From: Allostella sp. ATCC 35155 | GTDB taxonomy: Bacteria > Pseudomonadota > Alphaproteobacteria > ATCC43930 > Allostellaceae | Assembly: GCA_006738865.1 (NCBI GenBank) | Contig: AP019701.1 | Span: 3,406,001 to 3,470,000, forward strand | Length of the DNA stretch: 64,000 bases | Direction of reading: 5' to 3' | In this document: piece by piece, positions 2,455 through 50,164 of the stretch | Position numbering within the stretch: position 1 is the first letter of the stretch | Layout: each line of letters opens with the position of its first letter | The notes under the pieces: model-generated | The model's input: the letters and a program-made list of their open reading frames with translations, nothing else | What the model was told of the DNA's origin: nothing | Databases searched by the model: none | Translations under genes and position numbers: made by a program

Positions 2455-3198
2455 ATGACCGATCCGAACGCCGTCCTCTACGAATCGCGCGACCGCGTCG
2501 CCGTCATCACCATCAACCGGCCCGCCAAGGCGAACGCGCTCAATGCCGACGTCGCGGAGGGGCTGGTGGCCGCCTGGCGCCGCTTCAATGCCGGCGAGGA
2601 CCGGGTCGCGGTCGTCACCGGCGCCGGCGAGAAGGCGTTCTCGGGCGGGGCCGACCTCGACGCGCCGCCCGAGCTGCGGCGCTTCATGCCGGGGGTCGGC
2701 ATCGCGGTCGAGAAGCCGGTCATCGCGGCCGTCTCCGGCTGGTGCGTCGGCGGCGCCTGCGTGCTGGTCCAGATGTGCGACCTCTGCATCGCCAGCGAGA
2801 CGGCCCGCTTCTCCTACCCGGAGGCCAAGCTCGGCTTCACCGGTGGCCTCATCACCGCGCTCGCCACCCGCATCCCGCACAAGGTGGCGATGGAGTTCAT
2901 CCTGATGGGCGAGCCGATGACGGCCGAGCGCGCCTACCAGATCGGCTTCGTCAACAAGGTGGTCCCTGCGGGGCAGCATCTGGCGGAGGCCGAGGAGTGG
3001 GCACGGCGGCTGGCCGGCATGTCGCCGCTGGTGCTGGCGACGCTGAAGCGCTTCGTCGGCCGCACCCTGCCCAAGGGCCCGTCCGAGCAGGCCGGCATCG
3101 CCATGGCCGAGATCGAGGCCGTCTGGGGCAGCGAGGACTATCGCGAGGGCCTCGCCGCCTTCAAGGCGAAGCGCACGCCGGACTTCCCGGGGCGGTAG
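2455..3198 (+). CDS. Enoyl-CoA hydratase/isomerase family protein
   Basis: This 247-residue crotonase-fold protein is expected to act on an acyl-CoA thioester. The N-terminal ITINRPAKANALN segment and the oxyanion-hole glycines in SGWCVGGACVL are typical. The PEAKLGFTGG stretch occupies the region that carries a catalytic glutamate in hydratases. A GGGGGAACC sequence precedes the ATG. The length is slightly short but normal for single-domain members. It stands alone, with no beta-oxidation partners nearby, so substrate and reaction (hydratase, isomerase or other crotonase chemistry) remain open. Confidence 0.85.
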   Translation: MTDPNAVLYESRDRVAVITINRPAKANALNADVAEGLVAAWRRFNAGEDRVAVVTGAGEKAFSGGADLDAPPELRRFMPGVGIAVEKPVIAAVSGWCVGGACVLVQMCDLCIASETARFSYPEAKLGFTGGLITALATRIPHKVAMEFILMGEPMTAERAYQIGFVNKVVPAGQHLAEAEEWARRLAGMSPLVLATLKRFVGRTLPKGPSEQAGIAMAEIEAVWGSEDYREGLAAFKAKRTPDFPGR

Positions 3199-46522: not shown

Positions 46523-48039
46523 GGACGGCCCGCCCGCGCCTCTCGGCCTTCGGCACGGTCGCCGAAGAGCATGGTGACGTTGAGGCGTCGGTCTTGGTAA
46601 CGGTCGCGGAAGGTGAACCGGTCCGTCGCGTGGAAAAGATCGGAATCGAAGATCACCGCGCGATTGCAGCGGTACGGCACGACCACCGGCTCGCCGCCGT
46701 GGCGGGCAAGATGCTCGGTGATCGCCGCCTCGTCCTCGTTGAAACGGCGGAAGGACCAGTCGAGCGGCGCCTCGCAGCGATGGACGATCAATCCCCCGCC
46801 GCCGGACCCGTCCGACGGGCCGAGATTCGCCTCGTCCGGGGTCAGCCAGAAATTGACGTTCACCGCCGCGGCGTCGGCATGCAGCCCGATCCCCTCCATC
46901 CGGCTGTCGTACTTGTAGATCCACATCTGCCGCAGCCGATGGCCGCCGAACACCTGCGGCATACGCCGCGGCAGTTCGTCGGCGATCTGGGCGAGGAGCC
47001 CGCAGGCGACCTCGGGCAGGTAGGCGCCGACATAGCCGCCATGCTTGACGTGGTGGAAGATGGTCGAGCCGAGGCAGAACCGGCGCAGGCCGGCGAGCGC
47101 CTCCGGCCCGAGGAACCCGTCGATCCAGGTCAGGCCGGGCGCCAGCGCGCGATAGTCGGCCTCCACCTGGCCCCAGTCCCGGTCGCGCAGCGGGCTGGCG
47201 GTCATGGCCGGCGCATCGAGCCGCTGGATCGCCCGGTTGTAGCTGCCATCCAGGGTCCGCAAGGCGTCGTCGGTCAGCGCGACCGGCCGCCGGGCGTCGG
47301 TGCCGTCCGGCATCGCCGCCAGCAGCGCCTCGTAGCGCGGCAGCAACCGGGCGATCCGTCGCCGGTCGATCGCCGGATCGTCCTGCGCCAGCAGCCAGCG
47401 CAGTTGCTCGACATCGTGGCGGATGCGGCTACGATTGGCGATCCGGTCGCCATCCCGCCACGGCACCGACGGCTCCAGCCGCCGTGCCAGCGCCGCCTGC
47501 TCGCGCCAGGTGGCGACGGCCGCGGCCGGCTGCCCCGCCGCTAGCTGCAGCAGCGCCAGCGCCGCCCGCGGCGATGCGAGCCCCGTGTCGATGGCCAGGG
47601 CGGTGCGAAAGCGTGCGGCCGCCTCCTCGGGCACCCCTGCGCGCTCGAGCGCGAGGCCCCAGGCATACTGGAAGCGCGCTTCCCGCGGCGCCAGTTCTGC
47701 CGCGCGGGCCTGCGCGGCAGCGGCTTCGGCCGGGCGGCGCAGTGCCAGCAGCACATTGCCGCGATTGTGCTGGATGCCGGGGTGGCCGGGCGCCAGCGCA
47801 GCCGCCCGATCCAGGACGGGCAGCGCCTCGGCGAGCCGGTCGCAGGCCATCAGCGCCGTCCCGAGATTGGCGAGGAGGGCGGGATTGTCGGGGCTCGACT
47901 GCAGCGCGGCCGCGAAATGGGCCGCAGCATCGGCCGGTCGGGCGGCGCGCATGGCTTCCAGCCCGGCCGCATGGCGGCGTTGGGCATCCGTCGCCGTCCC
48001 CCTTTGCGCGGACGACCCGTCCGCGACGGCTTCCACCAT
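46519..48039 (-). CDS. TPR-repeat protein with 2OG-Fe(II) oxygenase domain
   Basis: This 506-residue protein has tetratricopeptide repeats at about residues 20-165 and a linker. A C-terminal 2-oxoglutarate/iron oxygenase domain follows, with the motif H387-A-D389 in GLHADAAAVNVNFWL, a distal histidine about 470 in DLFHATD, and an arginine in DRRLNVTM. The family suggests hydroxylation of a protein or small molecule; the TPR part suggests a protein partner. It is upstream of and translationally coupled to the ABC exporter, so the product may be modified before export (inference). The start at 48039 precedes the first repeat. Confidence 0.87.
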   Translation of the reverse strand: MVEAVADGSSAQRGTATDAQRRHAAGLEAMRAARPADAAAHFAAALQSSPDNPALLANLGTALMACDRLAEALPVLDRAAALAPGHPGIQHNRGNVLLALRRPAEAAAAQARAAELAPREARFQYAWGLALERAGVPEEAAARFRTALAIDTGLASPRAALALLQLAAGQPAAAVATWREQAALARRLEPSVPWRDGDRIANRSRIRHDVEQLRWLLAQDDPAIDRRRIARLLPRYEALLAAMPDGTDARRPVALTDDALRTLDGSYNRAIQRLDAPAMTASPLRDRDWGQVEADYRALAPGLTWIDGFLGPEALAGLRRFCLGSTIFHHVKHGGYVGAYLPEVACGLLAQIADELPRRMPQVFGGHRLRQMWIYKYDSRMEGIGLHADAAAVNVNFWLTPDEANLGPSDGSGGGGLIVHRCEAPLDWSFRRFNEDEAAITEHLARHGGEPVVVPYRCNRAVIFDSDLFHATDRFTFRDRYQDRRLNVTMLFGDRAEGREARAGRP

Positions 48040-48296
48040 CGCCACCCTCGCTCGCTCGCCGCTGCCGGCGGCGGTCAATCTAGGCGCATTGCGCCGACAG
48101 CGGCAAATCCGGCGGCCACAACCTACGCGACGGAACGTCGCAGTGTTGCAGCGCACAACGCCGTTTTCGCCGATTCCGGCTGCCGTATTGCACGCAGAAA
48201 ACCCGCCAAACCTATGGTACAAATTGATATATTACCGATCGACGGCGGGCTGAAACTTCGACCGCACACTTTCAGTGAGCAGGTGCAAAAAAGTTC
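48040..48296. other. Intergenic region upstream of the sRNA promoter
   Basis: These 257 bases lie between the TPR/oxygenase start and the sRNA promoter. They are locally AT-rich around 48215-48240 (TTGATATATTACC), as expected for the minus-strand gene's promoter. Open frames crossing it lack ribosome sites and family motifs, so I call no gene. Confidence 0.5.
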
Positions 48297-48325
48297 TTGA
48301 AAGCCGCCGAGGGGCGGCGCATATT
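48297..48325 (+). promoter_or_regulatory. Sigma-70-type promoter of the candidate sRNA
   Basis: TTGAAA (48297-48302) and CATATT (48320-48325) are separated by exactly 17 bases. The spacer consists of a perfect inverted repeat, GCCGCC-GAGG-GGCGGC (48303-48318), plus one base; it may be an operator or a supercoiling-sensitive element. The predicted start is near 48332. Confidence 0.65.
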
Positions 48326-48331
48326 CGGTTT

Positions 48332-48431
48332 CGCAGCATGGCCCACACCGCGTTGCGGTGCATGTTGTGTCTTCTTGGGCGTTTCCTCCCTAAACTTGGG
48401 CCGCATCGCAAGGTGCGGCCCCTTCTTTTTT
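48332..48431 (+). ncRNA. Candidate ~100-nt small RNA with anti-Shine-Dalgarno loop
   Basis: Downstream of a good promoter, the sequence folds in three parts. A stem GCCCA/TGGGC (48341-48345 with 48376-48380) encloses a hairpin CACCGC-GTT-GCGGTG (48346-48360). A short hairpin GTTT/AAAC (48381-48384 with 48392-48395) exposes CCTCCCT in its loop, complementary to Shine-Dalgarno sequences. The third part is an intrinsic terminator. C/U-rich anti-SD loops are known in alphaproteobacterial trans-acting sRNAs such as the alpha-r14 and cuckoo families; membership here is inferred. No open frame fits, and 6S, SRP and tmRNA signatures are absent. Confidence 0.7.
48398..48431 (+). terminator. Intrinsic terminator of the candidate sRNA
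   Basis: GGGCCGCA (48398-48405) pairs perfectly with TGCGGCCC (48414-48421) around an eight-base loop and is followed by a T tract (48423-48431, one C). It is the only textbook rho-independent terminator with a full T tract that I noted in the window. Confidence 0.9.
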
Positions 48432-48509
48432 CCGGGCGTCTTTTGCCGTCCGCCGGGCCCTTGGCCGTCGACCGCCAGTGGCACGCTTGTTGCGACGCCG
48501 GACGGCATC

Positions 48510-48737
48510 ATGCCGGTCCATCACCGCCCTCCCGTTTCCGCCGCCCTGATCGCGATGCAGGGCCGCGAGTTGCACGGCATCGAGATCGCCGACGGCCGCG
48601 CCGTCGAGCTTGCCGCCGAACTCGATCGCATCAACCGGCAGGCCGAAGCGGCGATCCCGGAATTCTGGTTCTTCGACGAGCCGATCCAGTTCCTGGCGGA
48701 GCTGGACGCGCTGGCGCGGCCGGAGGACGGGGAATGA
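48510..48737 (+). CDS. Small AtzG/GatC-like amidase accessory protein
   Basis: This 75-residue protein has a mostly helical central part and an acidic C-terminal segment FDEPIQFLAELD. It overlaps the amidase start by four bases (ATGA). By size, position and pattern it resembles AtzG/DUF4089 and GatC-type small subunits, which bind amidase-signature enzymes. The match is by pattern only. Another small protein in the same position precedes the second amidase at 54035. Confidence 0.65.
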   Translation: MPVHHRPPVSAALIAMQGRELHGIEIADGRAVELAAELDRINRQAEAAIPEFWFFDEPIQFLAELDALARPEDGE

Positions 48738-50164
48738 ACGACGCCGCCGCCCTCGACGTCTGGGAGACCGCAGCGGCAATCCGCAGCGGCCGCCTGACGG
48801 CGGAGGCCGCCGTCGCGGCATCGCTCGCCCGCATCGCCGACTGGCAGCCCGTCGTCAATGCCCTCATCCGCATCGAGGCGGAGGCCGCCCTGGCGCGGGC
48901 GCGGGCACTCGACCGGGCGGCAGCGGCAGGCGACTGGGCCGGCCCCCTGCACGGGGTTCCGCTCGCCCACAAGGACATGTTCGCACGGCCCGGCGGCGAG
49001 ATGACGGGCGGTTCGACGATCCTGCCCGGCCACGAGCAGCCCGCCCCCGCGCCGGCCGTGGCGCGGCTCGAAGCGGCCGGCGCAATCACGGTCGGCTGGC
49101 TGAACATGTCGGAATTCGCCGCCGGCCCGACCGGCCACAACGTCCATTTCGGCCACAACCGGAATCCCTGGAACCCCCGCCATGTCACGGGCGGCTCGTC
49201 GGCCGGCTCGGGCGCGGCGGTCGCCGCGCGTATGGTCGCCGGCGCCCTCGGCTCCGATACCGGTGGCTCGATCCGGCTGCCCGCGGCCATGAACGGGCTC
49301 GTCGGCCTGAAGCCGACCTACGGGCGTGTCAGCCGGGCCGGCTCGATGCCGCGCGCATGGTCGCTCGATACCATCGGGCCCCTGACCCGAACCGCCCGCG
49401 ATGCGGCCCTGATGACCGCCGCCATCGCCGGGCACGACCCGCGCGACCCCAGCACCAGCCGCCGACCTTTCCCGGACAGCCTCGACTTCCTCGAGCGTCC
49501 GGCGAGCGGGCTGGTCCTCGGCCGGCCGCCGGCGGCATGGATGGCGGACGCCACGGCCGAGGTGGCCGATGCCGTCGCCGCGGCGCTCCACGTCTTCTCC
49601 CGGCTCGGCATGACGGCGCAGGCCGTGGACGCACCGCCGCTCGAGCCGCTCTTCGCGCTGGGCGACGCCATCTCGAAGTCGGAAGCGGCGGCGGTCCACG
49701 GCACCTGGATGCGGACGCGCGCCGGCGACTATTCGGTCCATGTCCACAGCCGAACCGAGGCGGGGTTTCATGTTCCCGCCACCCGGTACCTCGAGGCGAC
49801 GGCGCTGCGCGGCCGGCTGCTGGGGGCCTTCGTGGCCGGCACCTTTGCCGGCATCGACGTGCTGGCCGCGCCGATCCTGACCTTCCCCGTGCCGACCATC
49901 GCCGAGACCGACGAGGGCGCGACCTCGGCCATTCCCGCGATGGTCGCCCGCCTCACCCGCTACACCCGGCCGTTCAACTATCTCGGCCTGCCGGCCCTGG
50001 CCCTGCCGATCGGCTTCGACGCGCAAGGGCTGCCGATGGCCATGCAGCTGGTCGGACGCCCCTTCTCCGAGCCGCTGCTGCTGCGCCTGGCGCACCAGTA
50101 CCAGCAGGCGACCGGCTGGCATCTGCTGGAACCGACGATCGAGCGGGCGGCGGAGCCGGCATGA
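48734..50164 (+). CDS. Amidase-signature family hydrolase (first copy)
   Basis: This 476-residue amidase cleaves an amide bond with the Ser-cisSer-Lys triad: K80 in LAHKDMF, S155 in GGSSAGSG and nucleophile S179 in GSDTGGSIR. The spacing is canonical for the family, which includes GatA, AtzE and allophanate hydrolases. It is preceded by a translationally coupled AtzG/GatC-like protein and followed by a peptide-type ABC transporter, which suggests hydrolysis of an imported amide. The exact substrate is unknown. Confidence 0.93.
   Translation: MNDAAALDVWETAAAIRSGRLTAEAAVAASLARIADWQPVVNALIRIEAEAALARARALDRAAAAGDWAGPLHGVPLAHKDMFARPGGEMTGGSTILPGHEQPAPAPAVARLEAAGAITVGWLNMSEFAAGPTGHNVHFGHNRNPWNPRHVTGGSSAGSGAAVAARMVAGALGSDTGGSIRLPAAMNGLVGLKPTYGRVSRAGSMPRAWSLDTIGPLTRTARDAALMTAAIAGHDPRDPSTSRRPFPDSLDFLERPASGLVLGRPPAAWMADATAEVADAVAAALHVFSRLGMTAQAVDAPPLEPLFALGDAISKSEAAAVHGTWMRTRAGDYSVHVHSRTEAGFHVPATRYLEATALRGRLLGAFVAGTFAGIDVLAAPILTFPVPTIAETDEGATSAIPAMVARLTRYTRPFNYLGLPALALPIGFDAQGLPMAMQLVGRPFSEPLLLRLAHQYQQATGWHLLEPTIERAAEPA

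Follow-up and report, generated by a model that had tools for sequence, protein, structure and literature searches.

The window, a stretch of 64,000 nucleotides from the genome of a bacterium of the genus Stella, now Allostella (G000 in the comparisons below), carries a compact series of promoter, hairpin and terminator elements between protein-coding neighbours. A first-pass annotation had proposed a candidate sRNA gene with an anti-Shine-Dalgarno (aSD) seed at this position, and the proposal is supported by a match to the Rfam model RF00519 and by the conservation of promoter, stems and seed. The features of the locus are the following:

46519 to about 48051, reverse strand: TPR protein, on one flank of the sRNA gene
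48297–48302, forward strand: -35 element TTGAAA, with CTTG kept in all six aligned copies
48320–48325, forward strand: -10 element CATATT, identical in all six aligned copies
48332–48369, forward strand: predicted 5' hairpin (SL1) with an internal bulge GCCCA at 48341–48345, outside the Rfam model except for its 3' end
48369–48380, forward strand: predicted weak middle hairpin (SL2, GUCU-UCUU-GGGC), competing with the pairing of GGG 48377–48379 to the seed
48382–48391, forward strand: seed UUUCCUCCCU, the 10-mer of alpha-r8, with complementarity to Shine-Dalgarno sites
48398–48431, forward strand: intrinsic terminator with a 10-pair stem (48398–48421) and a tail ending in TTTTTT (48426–48431)
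48512–50164, forward strand: small ORF without a Pfam match and amidase, on the other flank

When the entire window was compared with 4227 Rfam models using cmscan, one match exceeded its cut-off, namely RF00519 (suhB, described as mmgR), which covers 48362–48436 on the forward strand with model positions 1–77 of 77 and scores 57.5 bits against a cut-off of 41. A looser scan of 48000–48800 (E up to 1) returned RF00519 together with BjrC68, freshwater-1 and SorY, the latter three below their cut-offs. MmgR is the alpha-r8 sRNA of Sinorhizobium meliloti (PMC8401924, PMC7143759 and PMC12559287). The assignment to alpha-r8 is made because RF00519 is matched over its full length above the cut-off. 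Two features of the family are also present, the rho-independent terminator at 48398–48431 and the internal UUUCCUCCCU located 3' of a weak hairpin (48382–48391, after SL2; trait according to PMC12559287). Judged from its sequence, the window element is a genuine and conserved sRNA gene of the alpha-r8 (MmgR/Sis) family, which is already known and widespread; the suggestion of a new family member therefore holds for the member and not for the family. Likewise, the proposed search of Rfam covariance models did yield a significant match, to RF00519. The literature search found no paper treating small RNAs of the alphaproteobacterium Stella; two alpha-r8 copies are now placed in this little-studied, star-shaped genus, and the promoter and the 5' hairpin described here are both omitted from the Rfam model.

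The promoter and the terminator of the first-pass annotation were both recovered. TTGAAA and CATATT with their 17-base spacer (48297–48325) form the sole promoter-like site that a consensus scan detected in 48000–48800 (0.1 expected from shuffles), a site that is kept in relatives, and transcription would start at about 48331–48335. Three terminator-like sites were found in the same stretch against 1.0 expected: the strong stem at 48398–48421, which is followed by CTTCTTTTTT with its T tail, a second one nested within it, and a third at 48346–48360.

The RNA 48332–48433 is predicted to fold with -44.1 kcal/mol in comparison to a shuffle mean of -30.55 (z = -4.17), and none of 200 shuffles is as stable. 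SL2 is built from two Watson-Crick and two G-U pairs. The 10-mer is unpaired in the family fold; in the minimum-energy fold, part of it is base-paired, the CCC of CCUCCCU pairing with GGG 48377–48379 (unpaired probabilities of 0.10, 0.03 and 0.03 at 48388–48390); a fold with the hairpin 48369–48380 and the entire 10-mer free lies 2.3 kcal/mol higher. Averaged over the 10-mer, the unpaired probability is about 0.63 in the window copy; for 159 family copies among the matches listed, the median is 0.81. Of the three-part fold with CCTCCCT exposed in a small loop that had been suggested earlier, the hairpins are borne out, whereas the simple display is not, since CCC is paired in the best fold. 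The SL1 bulge GCCCA (48341–48345) is complementary to UGGGC (48376–48380) beside the seed, and both elements are invariant in six of six copies. A GCCCA:UGGGC pseudoknot that frees the seed is conceivable and would fit by sequence; as both arms are invariant, covariation cannot test it.

Conservation was searched in 61 genomes, the own genome (G000) and 60 relatives. DNA 48250–48480 was matched in 50 of the 61, and RF00519 in 53, 51 of them above the cut-off. The segment 48318–48396, comprising the -10 box, the 5' hairpin, SL2 and the seed, was recovered at E up to 1e-9 in six of the 43 genomes of the order: all four Stella genomes and both genomes of genus g8 (G016 and G011), which belongs to a neighbouring family. 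The copies of G003 and of Stella vacuolata ATCC 43931 (L110; Allostella vacuolata in NCBI's present naming) each match the window locus with 95.3% over 169 bases. Invariant in the six copies are CATATT, most of the 5' hairpin, the 3' arm of SL2, the seed and the foot of the terminator. The six-copy structure pairs in 99.4% of 165 cells, and double-sided changes occur in four pairs, one in SL1 and three in the terminator. Among 500 shuffles, the observed value was reached once for the percentage paired, once for the double-change cells, once for the covariation score and eight times for the double-change pairs; the number of further pair types was reached by 462 of the 500, and this measure gives no support. 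Slid controls were at most 56% paired; six related sequences are a small sample, and controls of this kind are biased in favour of a structure that was derived from a member of the alignment. A stem of at least four pairs is present at SL2 in five of the six aligned copies and was not found in that of G011. The alignment with relatives thus shows that stems and aSD loop sequence are kept, and the lack of conservation that would have spoken against the gene was not encountered.

The surroundings of the gene bear on the question of whether the RNA acts in cis. The terminator is located 80 bases upstream of the small ORF, the amidase adjoins the sRNA in G001 and G003 (79% identical), with a 45% match over 280 residues in G002, and parts of a peptide-type ABC transporter come after the amidase; the hairpin could accordingly belong to a leader or attenuator that terminates transcription of the small ORF and the amidase (48512–50164) early. 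The TPR protein is found near the sRNA in G001 and G002, and not in the stretch of G003 taken. However, the RNA is also present in different genomic contexts: neither TPR protein, small ORF nor amidase was found in 8 kb (G016) and 7 kb (G011) around the sRNA copies, which points to an independent gene, and the members of the alpha-r8 family are known as free-standing, trans-acting sRNAs (PMC8401924, PMC7143759, PMC12559287). A cis-acting leader is very unlikely on this evidence. Even less credence is given to an RNA that encodes a short protein or has a dual function, for which frames that remain open across the locus in the four Stella genomes could be invoked. The changes among the four copies track stems and loops: the terminator stem-loop holds nine of the 13 variable columns, the loop of SL1 two and the T tract one, the remaining column being located immediately before the RNA, and their distribution over the codon positions (6/4/3) displays no codon rhythm. 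In addition, indels of one and of four bases occur in the copies of G016 and G011, and the RNA family match extends over the full length. The description of these 135 bases as containing no gene is upheld insofar as no sign of a protein was detected (no codon rhythm, indels), and fails in the simple sense of an absent ORF, because several frames are open.

The kinship that had originally been suggested, with alpha-r14 (NfeR1) or cuckoo-type RNAs that consist of several hairpins, each with an aSD motif in its loop, likewise appears improbable in the extreme. Rfam probably holds an alpha-r14 model, and the scan returned RF00519 as the sole family over its cut-off and no alpha-r14 or cuckoo family. 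The likeness consists of a short RNA with several hairpins, an aSD stretch and an action thought to go through this motif. In contrast, alpha-r14 presents CCUCCUCCC in each of three hairpin loops (PMC10746234, PMC3927594), a defining feature that was looked for and is absent here, with one CCUCCC in 48332–48431 that is located outside the stable hairpins.

The window RNA can be compared with studied relatives. Shared with MmgR of S. meliloti are the full-length model match, the seed, the weak hairpin and the terminator, as well as phasins and PhaR in Stella; MmgR differs in its reported length of 77 nt (PMC8401924), compared with about 100 nt predicted for Stella, and the Stella promoter is without a PhaR-operator-like motif. 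SisA-SisD of Caulobacter crescentus (alpha-R8) contain the same 10-mer UUUCCUCCCU 3' of a weak hairpin and are present in several copies per genome (PMC12559287). The Stella genome G000 has two copies, the second with the seed AUUCCUCCCU, and unlike sisA neither is near an FGase gene; the five FGase places in G000 include none beside either copy, the nearest being 321 kb and 471 kb away, and an FGase neighbour is usual for alpha-r8 without defining it. AbcR1/AbcR2 (alpha-r15) have a reported partial homology to RF00519 and a CU-rich aSD motif (PMC7143759), but they carry two aSD motifs in unpaired regions and form a tandem gene pair (PMC7143759), whereas one motif is present here and cmscan found no second RF00519 copy within the 64-kb window. 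The second G000 copy, at C1:2587527-2587607 on the reverse strand (L181, about 3028-3108), scores 31.2 bits with RF00519, which is under the cut-off, and shows strong hairpins and a promoter-like TTG-(17)-CATCCT layout that is also found in G003. Per genome, RF00519 is matched twice in G000, G002 and G003 and once in G001.

For a wider view of the family, 159 distinct copies among the matches listed were chosen from fetched loci for TTTCCTCCCT plus a T run; the seed is fixed by this selection and its presence there is no evidence of conservation. L061-L180 originate from a pattern scan that found at least 120 stretches and also fixed GGGCG before the seed, a biased set rich in Bradyrhizobium. 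Because SL2 appeared in two registers in a 43-sequence alignment, this alignment was not counted, and hairpins were searched per sequence instead. Among the matches listed, a stem of at least four pairs lies directly 5' of the seed in 157 of the 159 copies of this biased sample (base shuffles: mean 37.2, maximum 54 in 100 rounds), and a terminator stem of at least five pairs is found in 156 of 159. The 43 bases 5' of SL2 reach a median z of -2.98 against base shuffles, with values below -1 in 87% and above 0 in 4% of the copies among the matches listed; this better-than-shuffle folding implies that a 5' hairpin is common in the family, with differing sequence. On the folding model, SL1 of Stella is the lineage form of a common part that is mostly missing from the Rfam model. 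Tandem alpha-r8 copies, two or three within about 0.3–1.3 kb, were observed in L062, L090, L094, L141 and L161, and the literature mentions adjacent copies. One record titled Mesoflavibacter sp., a flavobacterial name (L089, CP051228.1), holds the alphaproteobacterial sRNA and is perhaps a misnamed assembly. Plasmid records provided partial matches in six records, covering at most 44% of the query.

Taken as an alpha-r8 sRNA, the Stella (Allostella) gene very probably specifies an RNA of about 100 nt from its own promoter, the seed of which covers the Shine-Dalgarno sites of several mRNAs in trans. In the proposed mechanism, a promoter of the sigma-70 type would drive the RNA 48332–48431, laid out as 5' hairpin, weak middle hairpin, 10-nt seed UUUCCUCCCU and terminator with U tail; the seed would pair with G/A-rich Shine-Dalgarno sites and block translation start, probably with the help of Hfq. 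A trans-acting sRNA whose seed covers such sites as in SisA is the most likely mode of action. In Caulobacter, SisA pairs through its 10-mer with the mRNA of a TonB-dependent receptor, 5' of the start codon; repression is lost when either partner carries a point mutation and returns when the two mutations match, and the siblings are titrated by the sponge CrfA (PMC12559287). In S. meliloti, PHB and phasins rise upon loss of the MmgR core (PMC8401924), and no direct target of MmgR is known according to PMC7143759. From SisA and MmgR we infer that the Stella RNA is expressed, depends on Hfq, pairs with mRNAs in the cell, represses them and plays a part in the uptake or storage of carbon.

Candidate targets were sought as perfect complements of the seed, AGGGAGGAAA. 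Four occur in G000, one being the sRNA gene and three lying 3–6 bases before the ATG of a long frame; these encode an SDR oxidoreductase, a protein without a Pfam match and a Peripla_BP_6 solute-binding protein (first 120 residues). The four Stella genomes together contain 17 perfect complements, four of which are the sRNA gene itself; nine of the other 13 sites are 1–6 bases before the ATG of a frame of more than 140 codons, and four do not precede a fitting start codon. Reversed, the pattern is found a single time across the four genomes. As an aSD seed finds Shine-Dalgarno sites by design, these sites support the mechanism in kind and prove no target. One complement without a start codon (L213, G001:C1:4484164-4484173) lies in a stretch that we take to resemble RNase P RNA. 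Hfq is encoded in G000, G002 and G003; it was not found in G001 with PF17209, though the sRNA is present there, and a real loss, a frameshift or a search miss may be responsible. Direct targeting of the phasin mRNA was also considered. In G000, G001 and G003 the start of phasin 1 is preceded by AGGGAG, a hexamer complementary to the seed; the corresponding strand of the G002 phasin-1 locus lacks it. This case is weak, since AGGGAG also precedes 13 of 277 sampled G000 starts.

A further aspect is the control of transcription. In Bradyrhizobium, PhaR (AniA) binds TGCRNYGCASMA (PMC6201568), and in S. meliloti it binds the mmgR promoter (PMC12542648). The motif TGC[AG]N[CT]GC[AG] was counted 30–110 bases 5' of the seed in those L001-L180 copies with enough upstream DNA, and among the matches listed it is present in 104 of 155 alpha-r8 copies, which are related to each other and form a biased sample rich in Bradyrhizobium (dinucleotide shuffles: mean 11.2, maximum 19 in 40 rounds). 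Its start falls 36–75 bases 5' of the seed, around the promoter, at 138 of 149 sites among the matches listed. The copies of G016 and G011 carry the motif in the 30–110 stretch; none was found there in the four Stella copies (L001-L004), nor in 200 bases at the second G000 copy. One match near the window copy (48354–48362) is inside SL1 and is lost in G003 and G001 through a T to C change; the motif background in G000 is 0.29 per kb. PhaR is encoded in all six genomes (four Stella, G016 and G011), and the motif is located upstream of phasin 1 in four of four Stella genomes and of phasin 2 in the three with a located start (not G000). With the motif broken and PhaR and the phasin motifs persisting, it is possible, if rather doubtful, that the PHB sensor PhaR no longer controls the alpha-r8 sRNA in Stella. 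If so, the sRNA would be uncoupled from the storage polymer and would respond to another signal, perhaps through a TGCAAAAAA block before the -35 box that is common to the four Stella copies. The eroded motif would offer a straightforward example in which to test whether an sRNA that is conserved, seed included, may have come under a different transcriptional input. The Stella sequence TTTCGCAGCATGG resembles the right half of the phasin site TTGCAGTGCAGCATGG, and PhaR may bind this remaining half-site at the sRNA promoter.
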